This document shows, piece by piece, positions 31,720 to 51,728 of a DNA stretch of 64,000 nucleotides (its first letter is position 1; the number at the start of each line of letters is the position of its first letter). The notes under the pieces are model-generated. The model did no database searches. It saw only the letters and a program-made list of their open reading frames with translations, and had not been told where the DNA came from. The position numbers and the translations under genes were made by a program. The stretch spans positions 2,150,001-2,214,000 of the forward strand of contig NZ_CP053562.1 in the NCBI RefSeq assembly GCF_002085925.2, given 5' to 3'. This stretch comes from Thioclava electrotropha. GTDB taxonomy: Bacteria; Pseudomonadota; Alphaproteobacteria; Rhodobacterales; Rhodobacteraceae.

Positions 31720-31755
31720 AGCGTTTCAAATTCCCTTAACGCATATTCCCTTTAT

Positions 31756-31768
31756 TTAAATTTCATAA
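31756..31768. promoter_or_regulatory. Candidate CbbR binding half-site
   Basis: TTA-N7-TAA (TTAAATTTCATAA) fits the TNA-N7/8-TNA consensus reported for CbbR and the general T-N11-A rule for LysR proteins. It lies 59 bases upstream of the cbbF start in the AT-rich middle of the cbbR-cbbF intergenic region. Confidence 0.5.
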
Positions 31769-43015: not shown

Positions 43016-43717
43016 ATGAGCTTTGACCGTTCCATCAAGATCGCGCCCTCGATCCTGTCGGCCGATTTCGCCAATTTCGGCGCCGAGATCCGCGCCATCG
43101 AAGATCAGGGGGCCGATTGGGTCCATGTCGACGTGATGGACGGGCATTTCGTGCCGAACCTCACCTTCGGCCCGCCCGCCGTGAAAGCGTTCCGCCCGCA
43201 TGTGAAGACCTTCATGGACGTCCACCTGATGATCGCGCCTGTCGATCCCTACATCGAAGCCTATGCCGAAGCGGGCGCCGATATGATCGTGGCGCATTGG
43301 GAGGCCGGCCCGCACCCGCATCGCACGCTGCAGGCGATCAAGGCGCAGGGCGTGAAATGCGGCATCTCGCTGAACCCCGGAACGCCTGCCAACGTGATCT
43401 CGGAACTGCTCGACCTCGTCGACATGGTTCTCGTGATGAGCGTGAACCCCGGCTTCGGTGGTCAGAAATTCATCCCCTCCAGCATCAATAAGGTCCGCCA
43501 AGTGCGCGAAATGATTGGCGATCGCGAGATTCACATTCAGGTGGATGGCGGCGTCGATCCGACCACGGTCGGCCCGCTGGTCGAAGCCGGCGCGGATTGC
43601 TTCGTGGCTGGCTCGGCCGTCTTCAAGGGCGGTTCGGTCGACAAACCCGAGGTCTATGGCGCGAATATGCGCGCGATCCGCGAAGCGGCACAGGGGGCCC
43701 TCAAAGCGGCGCAATGA
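43016..43717 (+). CDS. cbbE: Ribulose-phosphate 3-epimerase, Calvin cycle
   Basis: 233-residue TIM barrel converting xylulose 5-phosphate to ribulose 5-phosphate for phosphoribulokinase. Signature segments: [56 protein letters not shown] and VDGGVDPTT. The start follows CCGGAGGACCCC. A dyad follows the stop, and then comes the MBL module. Confidence 0.95.
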
Positions 43718-43730
43718 CGAGCAGAACGAC

Positions 43731-43776
43731 GCAGGGCGGCGCGGTCGCAAAACCGTGATCTGACCGCTTGCCCTGC
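43731..43776 (+). terminator. Large interrupted hairpin after cbbE
   Basis: Two stems GCAGGGC/GCCCTGC and GCGGTC/GACCGC enclose a 15-base loop in the 112-base gap between cbbE and the next gene. No T-run follows, so it is more likely a processing or stability element, or a weak attenuator, than a full terminator. Confidence 0.4.
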
Positions 43777-43829
43777 CGCCGCCTCTCGTTCATATTCGTG
43801 GAATTGAATACCAGTAAGGGAGGACTGGC

Positions 43830-44738
43830 ATGACTTTCACGCGACGCACCATTCTGCGCGGAGGGCTGGCGATGGGCGCCATGACCGCCCTTCCCCGGCT
43901 CAGCTTCGCCGCCCAGACCCTCGAAATGGGATCGGCCCGGCTCGACACGCTGTCCGATGGCAATCTCGTGCTGCCGATCGGCTTCGTGACCGATAACCCC
44001 GAGGCCAAGCCGATCCTTGAGAAATACGGCATCACCGGAGACTCGGTCGAGCCGCCCTGCAATGTCACGCTCTATCGCGACGGGACCAACACGGTGCTGT
44101 TCGACGTGGGCTCGGGCAATGATTTCATGCCCTCGGCGGGCAAGCTGATGGAAGCGATGGATGCGCTCGAAGTCGCGCCCGATGACGTGACCCATGTCGT
44201 CTTCACCCATGGCCACCCGGATCACCTCTGGGGTGTGCTCGACGATTTCGACGAGCCGTTCTTCGCTAACGCCCAGCACATGATGGGCAAGGACGAGTTC
44301 GAATATTGGCTGAATCCCGAGACGCTCGACACGATCGACGATGGCCGCAAGACCTTCGCGGCCGGCGCGCTGCGCCGCCTCGAAATCCTTGAAGATCAGA
44401 TCGACACTTTCGGCGATGGCGCGGAAATCCTGCCCGGCATCATGGCGCAGATGACCCCCGGCCATACGCCCGGTCACATGTCCTTCCACATCAAGAACGG
44501 CAACACGCAGGCCTTCATCATCGGCGATGCGATCGTGAACCACTACCTCGCCTTCGCGGCGCCGGGCATGGAGGCGGGCTCGGATCAGAACCCGGAGCTG
44601 GGCGCAAAGACCCGCGTGGCGCTGCTGGATCAGCTTGCGACCGATAAGCTGCCGATCATCGGCTATCACCTGCCCGAAGGTGGTCTGGGCCGGGTCGAGC
44701 GCGACGGCGACGCCTATCGCTACGTGCCGGAGGTCTGA
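43830..44738 (+). CDS. Tat-exported MBL-fold metallohydrolase
   Basis: 302 residues starting with a twin-arginine signal (TRRTILRGG, hydrophobic core, cleavage likely after LSFA, about residue 27), so it should fold in the cytoplasm and act in the periplasm. The canonical metal motif HGHPDH is at 127-132, with further ligands in TPGHTPGHM and IIGDAI. The specific substrate is unknown; the fold covers lactonases, thioesterases, sulfur dioxygenases and others. It lies 112 bases after cbbE and only 2 bases from the next MBL gene, so it opens a coupled set (MBL, MBL, thioredoxin-fold, phosphoglycolate phosphatase, cbbY). Confidence 0.85.
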   Translation: MTFTRRTILRGGLAMGAMTALPRLSFAAQTLEMGSARLDTLSDGNLVLPIGFVTDNPEAKPILEKYGITGDSVEPPCNVTLYRDGTNTVLFDVGSGNDFMPSAGKLMEAMDALEVAPDDVTHVVFTHGHPDHLWGVLDDFDEPFFANAQHMMGKDEFEYWLNPETLDTIDDGRKTFAAGALRRLEILEDQIDTFGDGAEILPGIMAQMTPGHTPGHMSFHIKNGNTQAFIIGDAIVNHYLAFAAPGMEAGSDQNPELGAKTRVALLDQLATDKLPIIGYHLPEGGLGRVERDGDAYRYVPEV

Positions 44739-44740
44739 GG

Positions 44741-45697
44741 GTGAAAAAACTTCTTTTGACCAGCGTCTTGGCGGGGCTTCTTCATGTAAGCCCCGCGCTC
44801 GCCTCGGAGGACGTGCCGGACATGTATCCCGGCTCGGTTCTCTATTCGAAGCCCTATGAGGTGATCCCCGGCGTCTGGACTTCGATCGGGGCCACCGCGC
44901 CGCCGACCTATGAGAATTCGGGCCATAACAACAATCTCAGCTTCATCGTCACCGGCGATGGCGTGGTCGTGGTGAATTCCGGCGCGTCCTATCAGCTCGC
45001 CCGCGCGCTGCATGACGAGATCAAGGCGGTGACCGATCAGCCGGTGAAGCTGGTGATCAACGAGAACGGTCAGGGCCATGCGATGCTCGGCAATAATTAC
45101 TGGATCGAACAGGGTGTGCCGGTGCTCGCCCATGTCGATGCGGCGGCCGAGTTCGAGCAGGACGCAGGCGGCGCTTTCGAAGCGCTGAAGTCTTACGGCA
45201 AGGAGACCGCCGAGGGCACCGATCCGAAACTGCCCACCGAGACCTTCGAGGACAAGCGCGTCATCGAGATGGGCGACATGACCATCGAAGTGATGCATCT
45301 CGGCCCCGCGCACAGCCCCGGCGACACGCAGGTCTGGCTGCCGGAGCAGAAGTTCATGATCGCGGGCGATATCGCCTTCTCCGAACGGATGCCGCCGATC
45401 TTCTCGGGCACCTGCACGAGCTGCTGGATCGAGACCTTCGAGACCAAATTCGCGCCGCTGGAGCCCGCCTTCATCATCCCCGGTCACGGCCACCCGACCA
45501 ATCTCGACAAGGTCACGCGGGGCACGACAGGCTACCTGAAATACCTGCGCGGCAAGATCGGTGAGCATATCGACAATGGTGGCGATCTGACCGAGGCCTA
45601 CTACGTGGATCAGAGCCCCTACAAAAACCTCGACACGTTCGAGGAACTGGCGACGAAGAACGCGGGCGTCGTCTACGAGGAAATGGAATTCGAATAG
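44741..45697 (+). CDS. Exported MBL-fold protein with degenerate metal motif and CxxC (SoxH-like)
   Basis: 318 residues from GTG 44741 with a Sec signal (MKKLLLTSVLAGLLHVSPALAS, cleavage near 22). The overall order of strands and the later ligand positions are MBL-like: His191 in GPAHSPGD, Asp210 in IAGDIAF, His249 in IIPGHGHP. The first motif, normally HxHxDH, reads NENGQGHA at 107-114 in an otherwise good context (INENGQGHAMLGN versus the usual VNTHxHGDHxLGN). A CTSC pair sits at 225-228. The protein may bind one metal, none, or use different ligands. It resembles exported MBL proteins near sox genes in Rhodobacteraceae, but a sox role is only a guess. Confidence 0.78.
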   Translation: MKKLLLTSVLAGLLHVSPALASEDVPDMYPGSVLYSKPYEVIPGVWTSIGATAPPTYENSGHNNNLSFIVTGDGVVVVNSGASYQLARALHDEIKAVTDQPVKLVINENGQGHAMLGNNYWIEQGVPVLAHVDAAAEFEQDAGGAFEALKSYGKETAEGTDPKLPTETFEDKRVIEMGDMTIEVMHLGPAHSPGDTQVWLPEQKFMIAGDIAFSERMPPIFSGTCTSCWIETFETKFAPLEPAFIIPGHGHPTNLDKVTRGTTGYLKYLRGKIGEHIDNGGDLTEAYYVDQSPYKNLDTFEELATKNAGVVYEEMEFE

Positions 45698-45705
45698 GAG
45701 GTCTC

Positions 45706-46260
45706 ATGGCCGTCACACCCCCCGTCTGCGATTTCGGCTGGAAGGCTCCGGGCTTCACCCTGCCCGGCACCGATGGCAAGCAATATAGCTTTGAAGACAT
45801 CCGTGGCCCCAAGGGCACGCTCGTGATGTTCATCTGCAACCATTGCCCCTATGTCCAGTCGATCCTCGACCGCATCCTGCGCGATGCGGCGGAGTTGCAG
45901 AAAGCGGGGATCGGGGTCGTGGCGATCTCGGCCAACGATGTCGACGACTACCCCGAGGACAGCTTCGAGAACATGGCCAAACTGGCCGAGGAGAAGGGCT
46001 TCCCCTTCCCCTATCTCTATGACGAAAGCCAGGCGGTGGCGAAGGCCTACGGCGCCGCCTGCACCCCCGATTTCTTCGGTTTCAACGCCGATGACGGGCT
46101 GCAATATCGCGGGCGTCTCGATGCCTCGACCAAGCAGGCCGCTGCGGCAGACGCCAAGCGCGAGCTTTACGAGGGCATGATGATGGTCGCGGAAACCGGC
46201 GAAGGCCCGCGCGACCAGATCCCGTCGATGGGCTGCTCGATCAAGTGGAAAGCCGCATGA
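45706..46260 (+). CDS. Thioredoxin-fold (redoxin/PRX-like) protein with CNHC site
   Basis: 184 residues without signal peptide, so probably cytosolic. The N-terminal APGFTLPGTDGKQYSFEDI and the active-site segment FICNHCPYVQSI (Cys-Asn-His-Cys near 44-47) place it in the PRX_like1 group of the thioredoxin/AhpC superfamily. Such proteins may act as thiol reductases or peroxidases; no function is established for this one. It starts 8 bases after the degenerate MBL gene and its stop overlaps the next gene, so it is tightly coupled to both. Confidence 0.85.
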   Translation: MAVTPPVCDFGWKAPGFTLPGTDGKQYSFEDIRGPKGTLVMFICNHCPYVQSILDRILRDAAELQKAGIGVVAISANDVDDYPEDSFENMAKLAEEKGFPFPYLYDESQAVAKAYGAACTPDFFGFNADDGLQYRGRLDASTKQAAAADAKRELYEGMMMVAETGEGPRDQIPSMGCSIKWKAA

Positions 46261-46919
46261 GCGACGCCCCTTCCGTCATCTTCGACCTCGACGGGACGCT
46301 GATCGACTCCGTGCCCGCGATCCATGCCGTCTCGAATGCCGTGCTGACCGAGATGGGCTTCGAACCGCTCTCGCTTCCAATGATCCGTAGCTTCGTCGGC
46401 AAGGGCGTGCCCAACCTCGTGCGCCAGTTGCTGATCACCTCGGGCGAAGATCCGGACGGGCCGCTTTTCGCCCGTGTGGAGCACGCGCTGATCGCGCGCT
46501 ACGAGACGGACGTGGAGGGCAACGTGCCCTATCCCAACGTGATCGCCGCGCTCGACACGCTCAAGGAGATGGGCTGCCGGATGGCCGTGTGCACCAACAA
46601 GCCCTTCGCGCCCGCCGAGGCCGCTTTGCGCCATGTCGGTCTCTGGGAGTATTTCGAGCTGACGCTGGGCGGGGATTCCATGCCCACCCGCAAGCCCGAG
46701 CCGCAGATGCTGCACCATTGCCATCAGGCGCTCGGCGGCGGCGCGATGATCTATGTCGGGGACTCCGAGGTCGATGCGGAAACGGCGGTGAACGCGCAGG
46801 CGCCCTTCGCGATCTATTCCGAGGGCTATCGCAAGACGCCGCTGACCGAAGTGCCCCATGACGTGGCCTTCTCGGATTGGGCGATGCTGCCCGGTCTGGT
46901 GGAGGGCTGGAAATGGTGA
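46257..46919 (+). CDS. gph: Phosphoglycolate phosphatase (HAD family)
   Basis: 220 residues from ATG 46257, which overlaps the previous stop (ATGA); a GTG four codons upstream is less likely. HAD motifs: VIFDLDGTLIDS, CTNKPF with the second-motif Thr, KPEPQML Lys, and YVGDSEVDAETA acid pair. It hydrolyses 2-phosphoglycolate made by the RuBisCO oxygenase side reaction. In cbb operons this gene is named cbbZ. It overlaps cbbY by 7 bases. Confidence 0.9.
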   Translation: MSDAPSVIFDLDGTLIDSVPAIHAVSNAVLTEMGFEPLSLPMIRSFVGKGVPNLVRQLLITSGEDPDGPLFARVEHALIARYETDVEGNVPYPNVIAALDTLKEMGCRMAVCTNKPFAPAEAALRHVGLWEYFELTLGGDSMPTRKPEPQMLHHCHQALGGGAMIYVGDSEVDAETAVNAQAPFAIYSEGYRKTPLTEVPHDVAFSDWAMLPGLVEGWKW

Positions 46920-47614
46920 GCGCGCTGATCTTCGACGTCGACGGCACGCTGGCCGAGACCGAAGAAGCGCATCGCCGCGCCTTCAACGAGACCTTCGCGG
47001 CGCGCGGCGTCGACTGGAACTGGTCGCAGGAAACGTACCGCGAACTCCTGAAGACCACCGGCGGCAAGGAGCGCATGGCGCGCCACCGCGAGGTCATGGG
47101 CTTCGGCCCCTCTGACGACGAAATCGCCGAACTGCACAAGATCAAGACCCGGCGTTATGTCGAGATCATAACCGACGGCGAGGTGCCGCTGCGCCCCGGC
47201 GTGGCGCGGCTGATCGCCATTGCGCGCGACGCGGGATTGAAGCTCGCCATCGCCACGACCACGAACCGGCCCAATGTCGATGCGCTGATCCGCGCGACGC
47301 TGGGCGCCGATCCCGATCACCTGTTCGACGCGATCGCAGCGGGCGACGAGGTGGAGACAAAGAAGCCCGCGCCCGACGTGTTCGAGCTGGCGCTGAACCG
47401 GTTGCATCTGCCGCCCGAGGCCTGCATCGCTTTCGAGGATAGCGAAATGGGTCTACAATCGGCGCAAGGGGCTGGGCTTCGCGTGCTGATAACCCCTTCG
47501 GCCTATACCGACGGGGGCGATTTCTCGAGCGCGGAGTGGGTTCTTCCCGACCTCTCGCATGCCTTACCGCCCGAGATCACGGAAGGGCTGGGACAGAGTG
47601 CCGCAATTTCATAA
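46913..47614 (+). CDS. cbbY: Xylulose-1,5-bisphosphate phosphatase CbbY (HAD family)
   Basis: 233 residues; ATG 46913 (MVSALIFDVDGTLAETEE) was preferred over an upstream codon because it begins directly with the HAD motif. Further motifs: ATTTNRPN, KKPAPDVFELAL and AFEDSEMGLQSA. In autotrophs CbbY destroys xylulose 1,5-bisphosphate, a potent misfire inhibitor of RuBisCO, and so works with the CbbQO activase encoded upstream. It ends the coupled block; the next gene starts 45 bases later. Confidence 0.9.
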   Translation: MVSALIFDVDGTLAETEEAHRRAFNETFAARGVDWNWSQETYRELLKTTGGKERMARHREVMGFGPSDDEIAELHKIKTRRYVEIITDGEVPLRPGVARLIAIARDAGLKLAIATTTNRPNVDALIRATLGADPDHLFDAIAAGDEVETKKPAPDVFELALNRLHLPPEACIAFEDSEMGLQSAQGAGLRVLITPSAYTDGGDFSSAEWVLPDLSHALPPEITEGLGQSAAIS

Positions 47615-47659: not shown

Positions 47660-48526
47660 ATGATCAAACCTGACGTCAAAGCGTTTTTCGACACCGCGAC
47701 TTTCACCGTCTCTTACGTGGTGAAAGATCCGGGCAGCAAATCCTGCGCCGTCGTCGATAGCGTGCTCGATTTCGACTATTCCTCGGGTCGCACGGATACC
47801 AAATCCGCCGACGAGGTCATCGCCTATGTGCAGGAAAACGGTCTTGAGGTGGAATGGATCCTCGAGAGCCACGTCCATGCCGACCACCTCTCCGCCGCGC
47901 CCTATATTCAGGAGCGCGTCGGCGGCAAGATCGGTATCGGCGACCGCATTCAGGTCGTGCAGGACACGTTCGGCAAGATCTTCAACGAAGGCACCGAATT
48001 CCAGCGCGACGGCTCACAGTTCGACAAGCTCTTCAAGGAAGGCGACACGTTCACCGTGGGCGCACTTGAAGGCAAGGTCCTGCACACGCCGGGCCACACG
48101 CCCGCTTGCCTCACCTACGTGATCGGCGATGCGGCCTTCGTGGGCGATACGCTCTTCATGCCCGATTTCGGCACCGCGCGCTGCGACTTCCCCGGAGGGT
48201 CGGCAGAAACGCTCTATTCCTCGATCCAGAAAATCCTCACCCTGCCCGACGAGACCCGCATCTTCGTGGGCCACGACTACAAGGCTCCGGGCCGTGACGA
48301 ATACGCGTGGGAAACCAGCGTGGCCGAGGAAAAGGCGCGCAACATCCATATCGGCGGCGGCAAGTCCGAGGCCGAATTCGTCAAGATGCGCACCGAGCGC
48401 GACGCGACGCTGGCGATGCCGAAGCTGATCATCCCCTCGCTGCAGGTGAACATGCGCGCAGGCCAGATGCCGCCCGCCGATGACGAGGGCAAGACCTATC
48501 TCAAAGTTCCGGTGAACGGGCTCTGA
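47660..48526 (+). CDS. Persulfide dioxygenase-like MBL-fold protein (Blh MBL domain type)
   Basis: 288 residues, no signal peptide, cytosolic. Metal ligands: HVHADH (71-76), His146 in HTPGHTPACL, Asp163 in VGDTLF, and His205 in VGHDYKAPGRD. The GTARCDFPGGSAETLYSSIQ stretch is typical of the ETHE1/Blh group, which oxidises glutathione persulfide to sulfite. The gene following encodes a DUF442 sulfurtransferase, which is fused to this domain in Blh proteins. The pair probably detoxifies or oxidises sulfide. An alternative glyoxalase II role is less likely because of the neighbour. Confidence 0.85.
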   Translation: MIKPDVKAFFDTATFTVSYVVKDPGSKSCAVVDSVLDFDYSSGRTDTKSADEVIAYVQENGLEVEWILESHVHADHLSAAPYIQERVGGKIGIGDRIQVVQDTFGKIFNEGTEFQRDGSQFDKLFKEGDTFTVGALEGKVLHTPGHTPACLTYVIGDAAFVGDTLFMPDFGTARCDFPGGSAETLYSSIQKILTLPDETRIFVGHDYKAPGRDEYAWETSVAEEKARNIHIGGGKSEAEFVKMRTERDATLAMPKLIIPSLQVNMRAGQMPPADDEGKTYLKVPVNGL

Positions 48527-48594
48527 GACCATAAGAGAGCGGGCGGGCATGATCCCGCCCGTCTCCATCTAAAGGCAGGATAACAGGACAGATT

Positions 48595-49035
48595 ATGGAA
48601 CTGCGCAAACTTACCGACGAGTTTTCCGTCGCCCCGCAGATCGAGCCCGAGGACGTGCCGAAGCTCGCCGAAATGGGCTTTCGCACGCTGATCATCAATC
48701 GCCCCGACGAAGAGATCGAGGACGCGGATCAACGCTCGGACGCAATCGCGGCGCTGTGCCAGTCGCATGGCCTCACCCCCTATTACCTTCCCTATTATCC
48801 CGGCGAACTGAGCCTGGAACTGGTCGACGATTTCGCAACGATCATGGATGCCGCGGAAAAGCCCGCCTTGGGCTATTGCCGCTCGGGCACCCGCTCGTCG
48901 CATCTGTGGGGGGTCAGCCAAGCGGGGGAAATGGAGATCGACAAGATCGTCGCCACGGCGGCCGAAGCGGGCTATGACCATTCCTCGCTGGTGCCGGTGA
49001 TGCAGTATTACGCCAGCCGCCGCGATCAGGCCTGA
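48595..49035 (+). CDS. TIGR01244/DUF442 sulfurtransferase (Blh N-terminal domain type)
   Basis: 146 residues with a phosphatase/rhodanese-like P-loop CRSGTRS (95-101), the catalytic Cys being residue 95; FRTLIINRPDEE near 29-40 is typical. This family equals the N-terminal domain of Blh and transfers sulfane sulfur, for example to glutathione to make the persulfide used by the dioxygenase. It is 68 bases after the dioxygenase gene, across a GGGCGGG/CCCGCCC hairpin (48541-48560) with no T-run, and 24 bases before the SulP gene. Confidence 0.85.
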   Translation: MELRKLTDEFSVAPQIEPEDVPKLAEMGFRTLIINRPDEEIEDADQRSDAIAALCQSHGLTPYYLPYYPGELSLELVDDFATIMDAAEKPALGYCRSGTRSSHLWGVSQAGEMEIDKIVATAAEAGYDHSSLVPVMQYYASRRDQA

Positions 49036-49059: not shown

Positions 49060-50811
49060 ATGCTCAAACGCTACCTGCCGATCCTCAGCTGGGGGCGCGA
49101 CTACGATCGCCCGACCTTCGAGGCCGATCTGATCGCGGCTGTGATTGTGACGATCATGCTGATCCCGCAATCGCTGGCCTACTCGCTGCTGGCTGGCATG
49201 CCGCCGGAATACGGGCTTTACGCCTCGGTACTGCCACTGCTGATCTACGCAGTCTTCGGCACCTCGCGGCCTCTGGCCGTGGGGCCCGTCGCGGTGATCT
49301 CGTTGATGACCGCTGCCGCGGTGGGCAAAGTCGCGGCACAGGGCACGCCTGAATATATCGCCGCCGCCGTGGCGCTGGCCTTCCTGTCGGGCGTGATGCT
49401 GGTGATCATGGGCTTCCTGCGGATGGGCTTCATCACGGCCTTCCTCAGCCACCCGGTTCTGTCGGGCTTCACCTCCGCCGTGGGCATCCTGATCGCTGCG
49501 GGTCAGATGAAGCATTTCTTCGGCATTCAGGGCGAAAGCGGCGGCATTTTCGACATTCTCGGCGGGCTCTGGGCGCATCTCGGCCAGACCAACGGCTACA
49601 CGGTCGTCATCTCGATCCTGTCGCTGGTCTTCCTGTTTTGGGCGCGGCGCGGGTTGAAACCGCGCCTGCTGAAGGCGGGGCTGTCCGAGCGGCTCGCGGC
49701 GATCCTGACCCGCGCGGCCCCCGTCTATGCGGTGGCCGCGACCATCCTGATCACCTGGCTCTTCGGGCTGGAGGGGCGCGGCGTCCGCGTGGTGGGCACC
49801 GTGCCGCTCGGCTTCCCGACGCCGAGCCTTCCGCCCGCCGATCTCGCGCTCTGGAAGGAACTCTTTGTCCCGGCGCTGCTGATAGCGATCATCGGCTATG
49901 TCGAGACGATCTCCGTCGCCCAGACACTGGCCGCGAAGAAACGTCAGCGCATCGACCCGGATCAGGAATTCATCGCATTGGGCGGCGCCTCCATCGGCTC
50001 CGCGATCTCGGGGTCCTTCCCGATCACGGGCGGGTTCGCGCGCTCCGTCGTCAGTTTCGAGGCCGGCGCGACAACGCCCGCCGCCGGGGCCTTCACCGCG
50101 ATCGGGGTGGCGCTCGCGACCTTCACCCTGACCCCTGCCCTCTATTATCTGCCGCAAGCGACGCTCGCGGCCACGATCTTCGTCTCGGTGCTGACGCTGG
50201 TCGACACCAAAGCGCTTAAGCGTACGTTCAAATACGCACCGCGCGAAGGCATTGGCATGGCGCTGACCGTGCTGGTCACGCTGATCTGGGGCGTCGAGGA
50301 CGGCATCGCCTTCGGCGTCATTCTCTCGATCGCGCTGCGGCTATGGGCCAGCTCGCGCCCGCACGTGGCCGAACTGGGTCAGGTTCCCGGCACCGAGCAT
50401 TTCCGCAATATTCAACGCCACCGCGTGAGCTGCGCGCCGGGCATCCTCAGCCTGCGCATCGACGAGAGCCTGTGGTTCCCGAATGCCCGCTTCGTCGAGG
50501 AGATGATCTACGACCGCATCGCCAGCGACGAGACGATCAAGCATGTCGTGCTGAACTGCCCCGCGATCAACCATATCGACATGTCCGCGCTCGAGGCGCT
50601 GGAAGAGGTGAACGACCAGCTCAACGATGCGGGCGTGCGGCTGCACCTGTCCGAAGTGAAGGGTCCGGTGATGGACCGGCTCACGCGCTCGGACCTGATC
50701 ACGCATCTGACCGGGCAGATCTACCTCACCCATTATGACGCGCTGGCGACCCTTGCCCCCGAGACCACCCAAGGTTGCGCGCACGAGAGCCGCATCGAGA
50801 CCCATCGCTAA
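49060..50811 (+). CDS. SulP family anion transporter with STAS domain
   Basis: 583 residues. The N-terminal ~400 residues form the multi-helix SulP permease (signature AYSLLAGMPPEYGLYASVLPLLIYAVFGTSR); the last ~120 are a cytosolic STAS domain (LSLRIDESLWFPNARFVEE..., NCPAINHIDMSALEALEE). SulP proteins carry sulfate, bicarbonate, carboxylates and others, generally by H+ or Na+ symport or exchange. Next to sulfur oxidation genes sulfate is plausible, while bicarbonate uptake would suit the carbon-fixation operon; the sequence does not decide. The ribosome binding site is weak (GAAGACCGAG). Confidence 0.9.
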   Translation: MLKRYLPILSWGRDYDRPTFEADLIAAVIVTIMLIPQSLAYSLLAGMPPEYGLYASVLPLLIYAVFGTSRPLAVGPVAVISLMTAAAVGKVAAQGTPEYIAAAVALAFLSGVMLVIMGFLRMGFITAFLSHPVLSGFTSAVGILIAAGQMKHFFGIQGESGGIFDILGGLWAHLGQTNGYTVVISILSLVFLFWARRGLKPRLLKAGLSERLAAILTRAAPVYAVAATILITWLFGLEGRGVRVVGTVPLGFPTPSLPPADLALWKELFVPALLIAIIGYVETISVAQTLAAKKRQRIDPDQEFIALGGASIGSAISGSFPITGGFARSVVSFEAGATTPAAGAFTAIGVALATFTLTPALYYLPQATLAATIFVSVLTLVDTKALKRTFKYAPREGIGMALTVLVTLIWGVEDGIAFGVILSIALRLWASSRPHVAELGQVPGTEHFRNIQRHRVSCAPGILSLRIDESLWFPNARFVEEMIYDRIASDETIKHVVLNCPAINHIDMSALEALEEVNDQLNDAGVRLHLSEVKGPVMDRLTRSDLITHLTGQIYLTHYDALATLAPETTQGCAHESRIETHR

Positions 50812-50933
50812 AGCACTTCGCGGCCTAGATCGGCGCCCATGCGGGTTGCCATAACGCCCAGAAAATAGGACATTCGGATATATCTTCCGGAGCGGAGAAT
50901 TCGCGCGCTGGAATAGTAGTAACGAGCTACGCG

Positions 50934-50960: not shown

Positions 50961-51728
50961 ATGTTATCCTTTTGCGAGGCAGTCTTACGCGCGAAATCGG
51001 TGCAGGAGATCTGGTCACGTCACTGCCAAGAAATGGAACGCTACGGGTTCCATCGTTTGATCTATGGCTTCACAAGTTTCCGAAAGGGCAACAATTTCGG
51101 CCACGAAGACGATTTGTTGATCCTATCGAACCACCCGAAGGAATATCTCGATATTTTTGTCGGGGAGGGAAAATACCGCAACGCCCCGATGGTTCAGTGG
51201 GCAGCGCAGAACGACGGCCCCTGTTCATGGCGCGTGGTGGCAGACCGTGCGATGCGGGGCGAGCTCACTCCGGGCGAGATCGAAGTCATCGAAATCAACC
51301 ACCGCTTCGGAATCCGTACGGGCTACTCGATCGGATTTTCCGATCCGCTCTCCTACGCGCGCGGCGCGATCGGCCTCGTGGGGCGGCCGGGGTTGAGCCA
51401 GGACGAGATCGACCGCATCTGGCGCGAGAACGAGCGCGAGTTGATGGTGATGAACAGCCTCGTACATCTGCGCATCTCCACCATGCCCTATTCCACCGGA
51501 CGCCGCCCGCTGACGGATCGGCAACGTGAAGTGCTCGAATGGGTGGCCGAAGGGAAGACGACCGCCGATATCGCGATCATCATGGGGCTGACGCCATCCA
51601 CGGTGGAGAAACACCTGAGGCTGGCGCGCGAAGCGCTCGATGTCGACACCACCGCGCAGGCGGTGATGAAAGCCTCGGTGCAGAAGCAGATCTTCCTCAA
51701 CGCCTCGCATGCGGCGGCGGCACGTTAA
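50961..51728 (+). CDS. LuxR family regulator (autoinducer-binding domain), solo
   Basis: 255 residues: N-terminal autoinducer-binding-like domain (about 10-165) and C-terminal LuxR helix-turn-helix (LTDRQREVLEWVAEGKTTADIA, about 184-240). No luxI gene is in the window, so it is a solo or acts on a distant synthase. Aligned by a constant offset of 5 to TraR, Trp57 and Tyr61 become Tyr62 and Phe66, Asp70 becomes Ala75, while Pro71 and Trp85 are kept (Pro76, Trp90). Loss of the Asp that binds the AHL amide suggests another ligand or none. Targets are unknown. Confidence 0.85.
   Translation: MLSFCEAVLRAKSVQEIWSRHCQEMERYGFHRLIYGFTSFRKGNNFGHEDDLLILSNHPKEYLDIFVGEGKYRNAPMVQWAAQNDGPCSWRVVADRAMRGELTPGEIEVIEINHRFGIRTGYSIGFSDPLSYARGAIGLVGRPGLSQDEIDRIWRENERELMVMNSLVHLRISTMPYSTGRRPLTDRQREVLEWVAEGKTTADIAIIMGLTPSTVEKHLRLAREALDVDTTAQAVMKASVQKQIFLNASHAAAAR

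Follow-up and report, generated by a model that had tools for sequence, protein, structure and literature searches.

SoxG and SoxH have been called thiosulfate-induced periplasmic zinc metallohydrolases (PMC10221251), a description repeated for SoxG with the addition 'potential thiol esterase' (PMC11508158). Some Sulfitobacter have soxG and soxH, or soxH, at a distance from the sox cluster (PMC10221251, PMC11034169), and in a Rhodovulum strain SoxH is found apart from soxABCXYZ (PMC9230146). For the persulfide-sensing repressor SqrR, the deduced site is ATTC-N8-GAAT (PMC9774250); the text of two papers on Hyphomicrobium SoxR (PMC10451225, PMC12423496) contains neither 'ATTC' nor 'GAAT'. Here we describe a locus in a 64,000-nucleotide (nt) stretch of the Thioclava electrotropha genome (NZ_CP053562.1, 2,150,001-2,214,000; hereafter the window, within which positions are counted unless a locus or contig is named), where two consecutive genes for exported metallo-β-lactamase (MBL) proteins, MBL1 and MBL2, and a gene for a cytosolic thioredoxin-fold protein, PRX, stand near the end of a Calvin-cycle (cbb) operon. 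We conclude that the locus is very probably composite: where the cbb operon ends, a soxG-soxH Sox module with a putative SqrR/SoxR-type promoter-operator of its own separates rpe from PRX. Sequence comparison shows the orthology of SoxG and SoxH, their occurrence only in genomes with SoxB, their independence of RubisCO, the conserved letters of the promoter-operator, and a single SoxG copy per genome, as in relocation and not duplication.

By orthology and gene order, the two exported genes are soxG (MBL1; 43830..44738, + strand, 302 amino acids) and soxH (MBL2; 44741..45697, + strand, GTG start, 318 amino acids), both delimited from open reading frames (ORFs), homologues and alignments. Neighbourhoods were compiled by tblastn of the window genes over 60 regions around MBL1 homologues with ORF clustering, and then over 100 regions with an added sox panel, whose names are our own ORF reading backed by the annotated plasmid of Rhodobacter sp. 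CZR27, on which soxX-Y-Z-A-B-C and an NAD(P)/FAD oxidoreductase gene precede MBL1. P. pantotrophus DSM 11072 has soxV-S-Z-A-B-C-D-E-F-MBL1-MBL2, that is, the soxEFGH order, and the window proteins are 54% (SoxG) and 70% (SoxH) identical to those of P. pantotrophus. The description of soxFGH reportedly goes back to Rother et al. (2001). In Sulfitobacter, genes for DUF302, 5-aminolevulinate synthase and YeeE proteins lie between soxF and soxH (PMC11034169), and the order that we read in one locus of our set (L048; L and G numbers are our labels for loci and genomes) agrees with this published interval. Together, the soxEFGH order of P. pantotrophus and the Sulfitobacter agreement identify MBL1 as SoxG and MBL2 as SoxH. 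The pair, which a preliminary description of the window had placed in a candidate undescribed system, is already in print under these names (PMC10221251, PMC11034169). A search of 385 genomes of the class gave SoxG matches at E ≤ 1e-75 in two, the source genome and G075 of the same family, and a search of plasmids found a SoxG match (58.6%) directly after soxF in Ciceribacter thiooxidans.

We next consider the company that these genes keep across 149 genomes of the family, in which we counted close SoxG in 49, SoxH in 58, PRX in 61, SoxB over its cut-off in 93, and RubisCO in 26. RubisCO was called from matches of at least 390 bits, a threshold of our own choice; 54 genomes have any PF00016 match, and the fragmentary matches of G108 and G110 were excluded. 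SoxB is present in all 49 genomes with close SoxG (p 1.1e-13), compared with 44 of the 100 others, and in all 58 genomes with close SoxH (p 5e-17); the genomes are related, so that these p-values overstate independence, which weighs against our reading, though SoxG, SoxH and PRX are contrasted over one and the same set of genomes. The suggestion that the exported pair is not a standard member of the cbb set was borne out: it is embedded in a real cbb operon but has no association with RubisCO (SoxG p 0.5, SoxH p 1), and co-occurrence with the cbb core was not found. In the source genome, SoxB lies at C1:2902700-2904379, and the 20 kb around it (L111) hold no close soxG or soxH.

The location of SoxG is known for 48 of the genomes (the window and 47 more; G060 was left out). 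Twenty-five copies lie in sox clusters, 18, including that of the window, in a block of the rpe/PRX/pgp type, and 5 elsewhere; three loci first filed as 'other' (L040, L046, L073) were moved to the block before tree testing, since pgp, pgp (with fbp upstream) or PRX follows. In block loci, soxG, with or without soxH, is placed between rpe and PRX. The preliminary description had expected the MBL pair to keep company with cbb genes, an expectation that the neighbourhoods contradict: counted by hand among the 48 loci, adjacent MBL1-MBL2 pairs stand in 17 sox clusters, 6 blocks and 1 other locus. All 49 genomes have one close SoxG, which argues for relocation and not duplication; duplication was itself considered and rejected, the second matches in G072, G075, G082 and G142 reaching only 142.9-172.5 bits. 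In a tree whose bootstrap had not settled, the SoxG clade has a support of 100/100, and a constraint that unites the 18 block rows lowers the log-likelihood by 96 units (approximately unbiased (AU) test, p 0.0006). The block copies are therefore not one clade, and either entry into the slot or departure from it seems to have happened repeatedly. The six block rows of the SoxH tree, likewise not settled in its bootstrap, are split between two positions. As a separate observation, SoxH in first position and apart from SoxG lies upstream of pntA/pntB (NAD(P) transhydrogenase, by ORF reading) in 12 of 13 loci (L113, L114, L116-L125, L127), often with a methyltransferase-like gene in between.

The module appears to carry its own control. 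The preliminary description had named a separate promoter as evidence against its reading, and soxG is preceded by what looks like one: between rpe (cbbE; 43016..43717, + strand), the upstream end of the block that holds soxGH, and soxG, cross-locus comparison picked out a promoter-like TTGCCC-N17-CATATT (43768..43796, + strand), and motif and position weight matrix (PWM) searches an operator-like ATTC-N8-GAAT of the SqrR/SoxR type (43794..43809, strand not assigned) that overlaps the -10. A promoter scan listed no promoter at 43768-43796, which matches 8 of 12 consensus bases by our own count, below the scan's threshold. Between rpe and soxG, all five Thioclava genomes compared (the window and L132-L135) have TTGCCC-N17-CATATTC-N8-GAAT exactly, and the first arm of a hairpin upstream varies. 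The operator scores 23.5, the best in the window, with a PWM from which the window itself was excluded, T. pacifica and T. marina being included.

For a wider count we took the 150 nt before each gene. Upstream stretches that were identical, MBL matches below 45% identity, and L132 and L133, which nearly duplicate the window, were dropped. ATTC-N8-GAAT stands upstream of SoxG in 41 of 65 loci and of first-position SoxH in 14 of 15, and of SoxH behind SoxG in 0 of 29. It is absent before PRX (0/47; 25 + 22), rpe (0/32), pgp (0/40) and cbbY (0/25), and occurs before soxB (7/25), soxC (2/32), cbbR (2/8), fbp (1/9) and LuxR (1/8), and before no other panel gene. Wrong spacings (N6, N7, N9, N10) gave three matches (one before SoxG with N6, one before soxE with N9, one before fbp with N10), five control palindromes gave none in the same stretches, and the background, counted together with the true sites, is 90 in 2.25 Mb, or about 0.006 per 150 nt. 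A hand count over the 48 located SoxG genes finds the site upstream in 14 of the 18 that lie in the block, in 15 of the 25 in sox clusters and in 2 of the 5 elsewhere. It is missing in all seven loci, two of them on plasmids, where SoxG follows soxF or soxD directly, as expected if SoxG is there read from the sox operon; one SoxG behind soxT does carry it. When stretches are anchored on ATTC, and two further likely copies are dropped (L136 of L038, L147 of L065), T, T and G stand at -26, -25 and -24 in 29, 29 and 29 of 41 loci, and 'TTG' falls in the 7-nt bin around these positions in 29 of 41, compared with 2, 6 and 0 in three control bins. The spacing is right for a -35, a feature that was no part of the motif searched for. 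The letters and spacing before soxG are thus those of an SqrR/SoxR regulon site, and we regard ATTC-N8-GAAT as a predicted operator.

The best candidate for the predicted repressor at soxG is SoxR from the genome's own sox cluster. This cluster (L111) encodes an ArsR-type SoxR that matches 6o8k best among PDB entries (E 2.9e-46), then 3pqj (BigR) and, with a lower rank, 3cuo (YgaV); entries 6o8k-6o8o we take to be R. capsulatus SqrR. The protein has cysteines in ILCHL and DMFCA, and a third lies before its likely start at residue 34. A search of the source genome found no close SoxR paralogue, only one weak ArsR match of 36.1 bits.

A number of findings weigh against a dedicated operator or against a composite locus. 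The exact site is missing in 24 of the 65 SoxG loci, and in 6 of the 18 loci with rpe 10-572 nt upstream of SoxG (one of the six, L136, being the likely copy of L038). It is also absent from the sox region that encodes the candidate repressor, where the best PWM score is 17.2, at L111 13372-13393; the apparent counterpart of this place in the sox cluster of another genome (G126, L130) scores 20.7. Within the source genome, ATTC-N8-GAATT occurs 19 times among the matches listed, and of the five exact places of CATATTC-N8-GAAT, two precede sulfur genes (soxG and a persulfide-dioxygenase-type MBL), the other three being at an RND adaptor gene, at a cytochrome b561-like gene and about 550 nt from a universal-stress-like gene, by our own reading. 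RubisCO genomes are also commoner among those with block SoxG (7/18) than among those with SoxG elsewhere (3/31, p 0.025). Finally, the window by itself is not significant, with 3 matches where 0.99 are expected and 6 of 100 shuffles yielding at least as many, so that the case for an operator rests on conservation across loci.

Further occurrences of the site were noted in passing. The copy of CATATTC-N8-GAAT at the sulfur gene lies just before the second persulfide-dioxygenase-type MBL gene of the source genome (L154, G000:C1:182295), and that at the RND adaptor gene is in L156 (G000:C1:1272364); a similar-looking adaptor is found near SoxG at L046:6685-7671. In L035 and L097, ATTC-N8-GAAT lies upstream of cbbR, in the cbbR-fbp gap that is the main cbb promoter region, where the window has only a degenerate PWM match of 11.5 (31742-31763). 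In seven loci (L051, L054, L060, L061, L064, L070, L139) it stands 36-42 nt before soxB, which suggests a wider regulon for ATTC-N8-GAAT; soxB PWM rows at distances above 7 kb were an artefact of slicing at contig starts and were excluded.

If soxGH merely arrived with its own promoter, its place in the cbb operon may bring no gain. This passive hitchhiking would explain why the promoter-operator letters accompany the genes in sox clusters, in the block and, for SoxH, in the pntAB loci, and it has precedent in the Sulfitobacter in which soxG and soxH lie outside the sox cluster (PMC10221251, PMC11034169). Two observations speak the other way: the block SoxG are not one clade in the AU test, the same slot having seemingly been entered or left repeatedly, and in the window three genes of sulfur type lie downstream. 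We consider hitchhiking the less likely reading, though by no means a negligible one.

The preliminary description had instead joined the two MBL proteins and PRX into one envelope-to-cytosol redox system serving autotrophic growth. Its account of the ORFs holds up in full, with an exported MBL pair (Tat- and Sec-type) and a CNHC-containing protein encoded at gaps of 2 (soxG-soxH) and 8 bases (soxH-PRX) and 4-base overlaps of PRX with pgp and of pgp with cbbY, and this tight arrangement, kept in five Thioclava genomes, would favour a single system, as would the excess of RubisCO genomes among those with block SoxG. The distribution of PRX argues differently. PRX (45706..46260, + strand, 184 amino acids; from ORF, Pfam and neighbourhoods) is associated with RubisCO (p 3.5e-4) and not with SoxB (p 0.39), the reverse of SoxG and SoxH. 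We counted by hand 21 PRX loci outside SoxG regions (L091-L110, L128), a subset of the 61 PRX matches: rpe is no more than two genes away from PRX in 15 and missing in six, pgp is beside PRX in 14, RubisCO lies in the same stretch in 5, and none of the 21 stretches holds a close SoxG or SoxH. Moreover, 11 of the 18 block-SoxG genomes have no RubisCO match of at least 390 bits (G108 and G110, with fragmentary matches, are among them). Because SoxG and SoxH track SoxB and PRX tracks RubisCO, and because the block stands without the MBL genes, the trio resolves into two joined modules, and PRX belongs to the rpe-PRX-pgp block, not to the soxGH module. A single three-gene system was rejected on this co-occurrence contrast and is in our estimate very improbable; what survives of the envelope system tuned to autotrophy is the exported, sulfur-linked pair.

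As for PRX itself, CNHC is invariant in 37 of 37 sequences. The protein passes the Pfam AhpC-TSA cut-off (75.9 bits against 26), falls below the curated cut-offs of thiol peroxidase and ResA models (31.4 of 140 and 30 of 170), and has PDB relatives (2ywi, 3u5r, 2cvb) annotated at most as 'probable thiol-disulfide isomerase/thioredoxin'. Rpe is an iron enzyme, and it is a guess that PRX might protect it.

SoxG retains the features expected of an exported metallohydrolase. Its N-terminus, MTFTRRTIL, has two arginines that are invariant in 28 aligned sequences including that of the window and reads as Tat-type. The HxHxDH motif is intact (H127, H129, D131, H132) and is joined by H212, D233 and H280, all invariant in 48 of 48 close sequences, so that SoxG has the ligands of a binuclear MBL metal site. 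One could read MBL1 as a quorum-quenching lactonase or phosphotriesterase-like enzyme, perhaps tied to a LuxR-type gene downstream (50961-51728, after SulP) with an autoinducer-binding domain (Pfam Autoind_bind): the best NCBIfam model is the AidB lactonase (NF047979, 139.6 bits), and PDB relatives include 7y7u and methyl parathion hydrolase. The AidB score is far below its cut-off of 360, however, and with SoxB in every SoxG genome and SoxG in sox clusters, we give this reading scarcely any credence. The window LuxR gene has an ATTC-N8-GAAT of its own at 50899-50914, and a LuxR gene with this domain after SulP is also seen in L031, L033, L073 and L091.

SoxH, Sec-type by our reading, is different. 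Where HxHxDH is expected, all 39 sequences have NGQGHA, as does SoxH of P. pantotrophus, and the protein thus lacks the canonical zinc motif. It keeps H191, D210 and H249, and G110, Q111, H113, H191, D195, D210 and H249 are invariant in 37 aligned sequences including the genome's sox-linked paralogue. A protein called a zinc metallohydrolase in print is thus without the textbook zinc motif in every sequence examined; we assign it as SoxH by orthology, the zinc-enzyme label being unproven, and suggest that its site may take up a single metal, some metal other than zinc, or no metal at all. The genome's sox cluster encodes a third MBL (L111:17406-18317), 39% identical to SoxH and with GGQDH at the place of the motif, and a relative of it lies on a Hoeflea plasmid beside genes for ArsR, permease, thioredoxin and OsmC proteins. 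That MBL2 is a quinoprotein-relay metallohydrolase acting with pyrroloquinoline quinone (PQQ) enzymes, as its best NCBIfam matches (TIGR04559, 137.8 bits; TIGR04558, 127 bits) might suggest, is exceedingly improbable, since both miss their cut-offs of 280 and 300 and the TIGR04559 protein of Sagittula (plasmid-annotated) has HVHPDH where SoxH has NGQGHA.

The remaining genes set the composite locus in its surroundings. Upstream lie cbbR, fbp, prk, tkt, gap, fba, rbcL, rbcS, cbbQ/X, cbbO and rpe, named from ORF reading, with RubisCO confirmed by a Pfam match. PRX is followed by pgp (phosphoglycolate phosphatase, cbbZ; 46257..46919, + strand, ATG at 46257; TIGR01449 164.1 bits, just below the cut-off of 180) and a cbbY-type HAD hydrolase gene (46916..47614, + strand, ATG at 46916; ORF and NCBIfam scan). 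Carbon-fixation genes were said to flank the trio on both sides, which holds as far as pgp and cbbY but not beyond, where the genes encode a persulfide-dioxygenase-type MBL (47660..48526, + strand; NF040641 413.9 bits over positions 141-422 of 423, against a fused-protein cut-off of 625), a BLH-type sulfurtransferase/phosphatase-like protein (48595..49035, + strand; TIGR01244 138.8 bits, above 85.85) and a SulP anion permease (49060..50811, + strand; TIGR00815 445.8 bits, above 380.45). In several relatives, too, the dioxygenase half, often with the other Blh half and SulP, comes after pgp/cbbY. The order from gap to LuxR is identical in four other Thioclava genomes, so that the locus is not an accident of assembly; SoxG is 97% identical in T. 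sp. JE_KL1 and T. sediminum, 86% in T. pacifica and 85% in T. marina. The hairpin at about 43731-43776 folds with z -1.97 (10 of 200 shuffles are equally good) but has no T-run, and a terminator scan called none there. Its first arm is missing in T. pacifica and T. marina, and a terminator at this place was rejected, the hairpin being neither called nor conserved. Elsewhere in the set, Jhaorihella thermophila (L136) and its likely copy L038 (at about 11.4-12.3 kb) each show a RubisCO large-subunit match broken in two, by frameshift or assembly error.

How might the composite locus work? In our model, a SoxR/SqrR-type repressor would block a sigma-70-type soxG promoter until sulfane sulfur builds up; release would then add soxG-soxH expression to CbbR-driven transcription, and read-through, which we assume, would extend from soxGH into PRX, pgp, cbbY and the persulfide dioxygenase, sulfurtransferase and SulP genes. 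SoxG, exported folded with its metals, would most likely act as a hydrolase in the periplasm, perhaps as a thiol esterase, and release or repair those thiols of the Sox cycle that are loaded with sulfur, and SoxH with its remodelled site would be its partner; this catalytic step is the weakest link of the proposal. We put forward only tentatively that a persulfide-sensing promoter inside the Calvin operon couples sulfane sulfur to the operon tail and soxGH independently of CbbR, and that SoxH has a new metal site (Q111, H113, H191, D210, H249). If so, an apparent orphan envelope system would become a wiring diagram in which sulfur oxidation and carbon fixation are joined through one internal promoter, and the little-studied SoxG and SoxH would gain a regulatory signature by which their partners could be sought.

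SoxG, SoxH and SqrR-type control are all of known kinds, and in the open-licence literature searched we did not find the cbb-operon location, the conserved soxG/soxH promoter-operator or the non-canonical SoxH site. Compared with soxEFGH of P. pantotrophus, the window has the same two proteins in the same order and at near-zero spacing, but has them in a cbb operon, where rpe and PRX flank them and a putative promoter-operator of their own precedes them. The nearest curated model of SoxH, the quinoprotein relay zinc metallohydrolase 2 (TIGR04559, residues 40-318), differs in its active-site motif and scores SoxH below its cut-off. Both halves of Blh, the bifunctional sulfurtransferase/persulfide dioxygenase, are present in the window, there split into two genes in reversed order (47660-49035). 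The predicted operator, for its part, matches the SqrR site in letters and spacing (PMC9774250) and overlaps the -10 as repressor sites do, but, unlike the sites of SqrR, BigR and SoxR, lies inside a Calvin operon.

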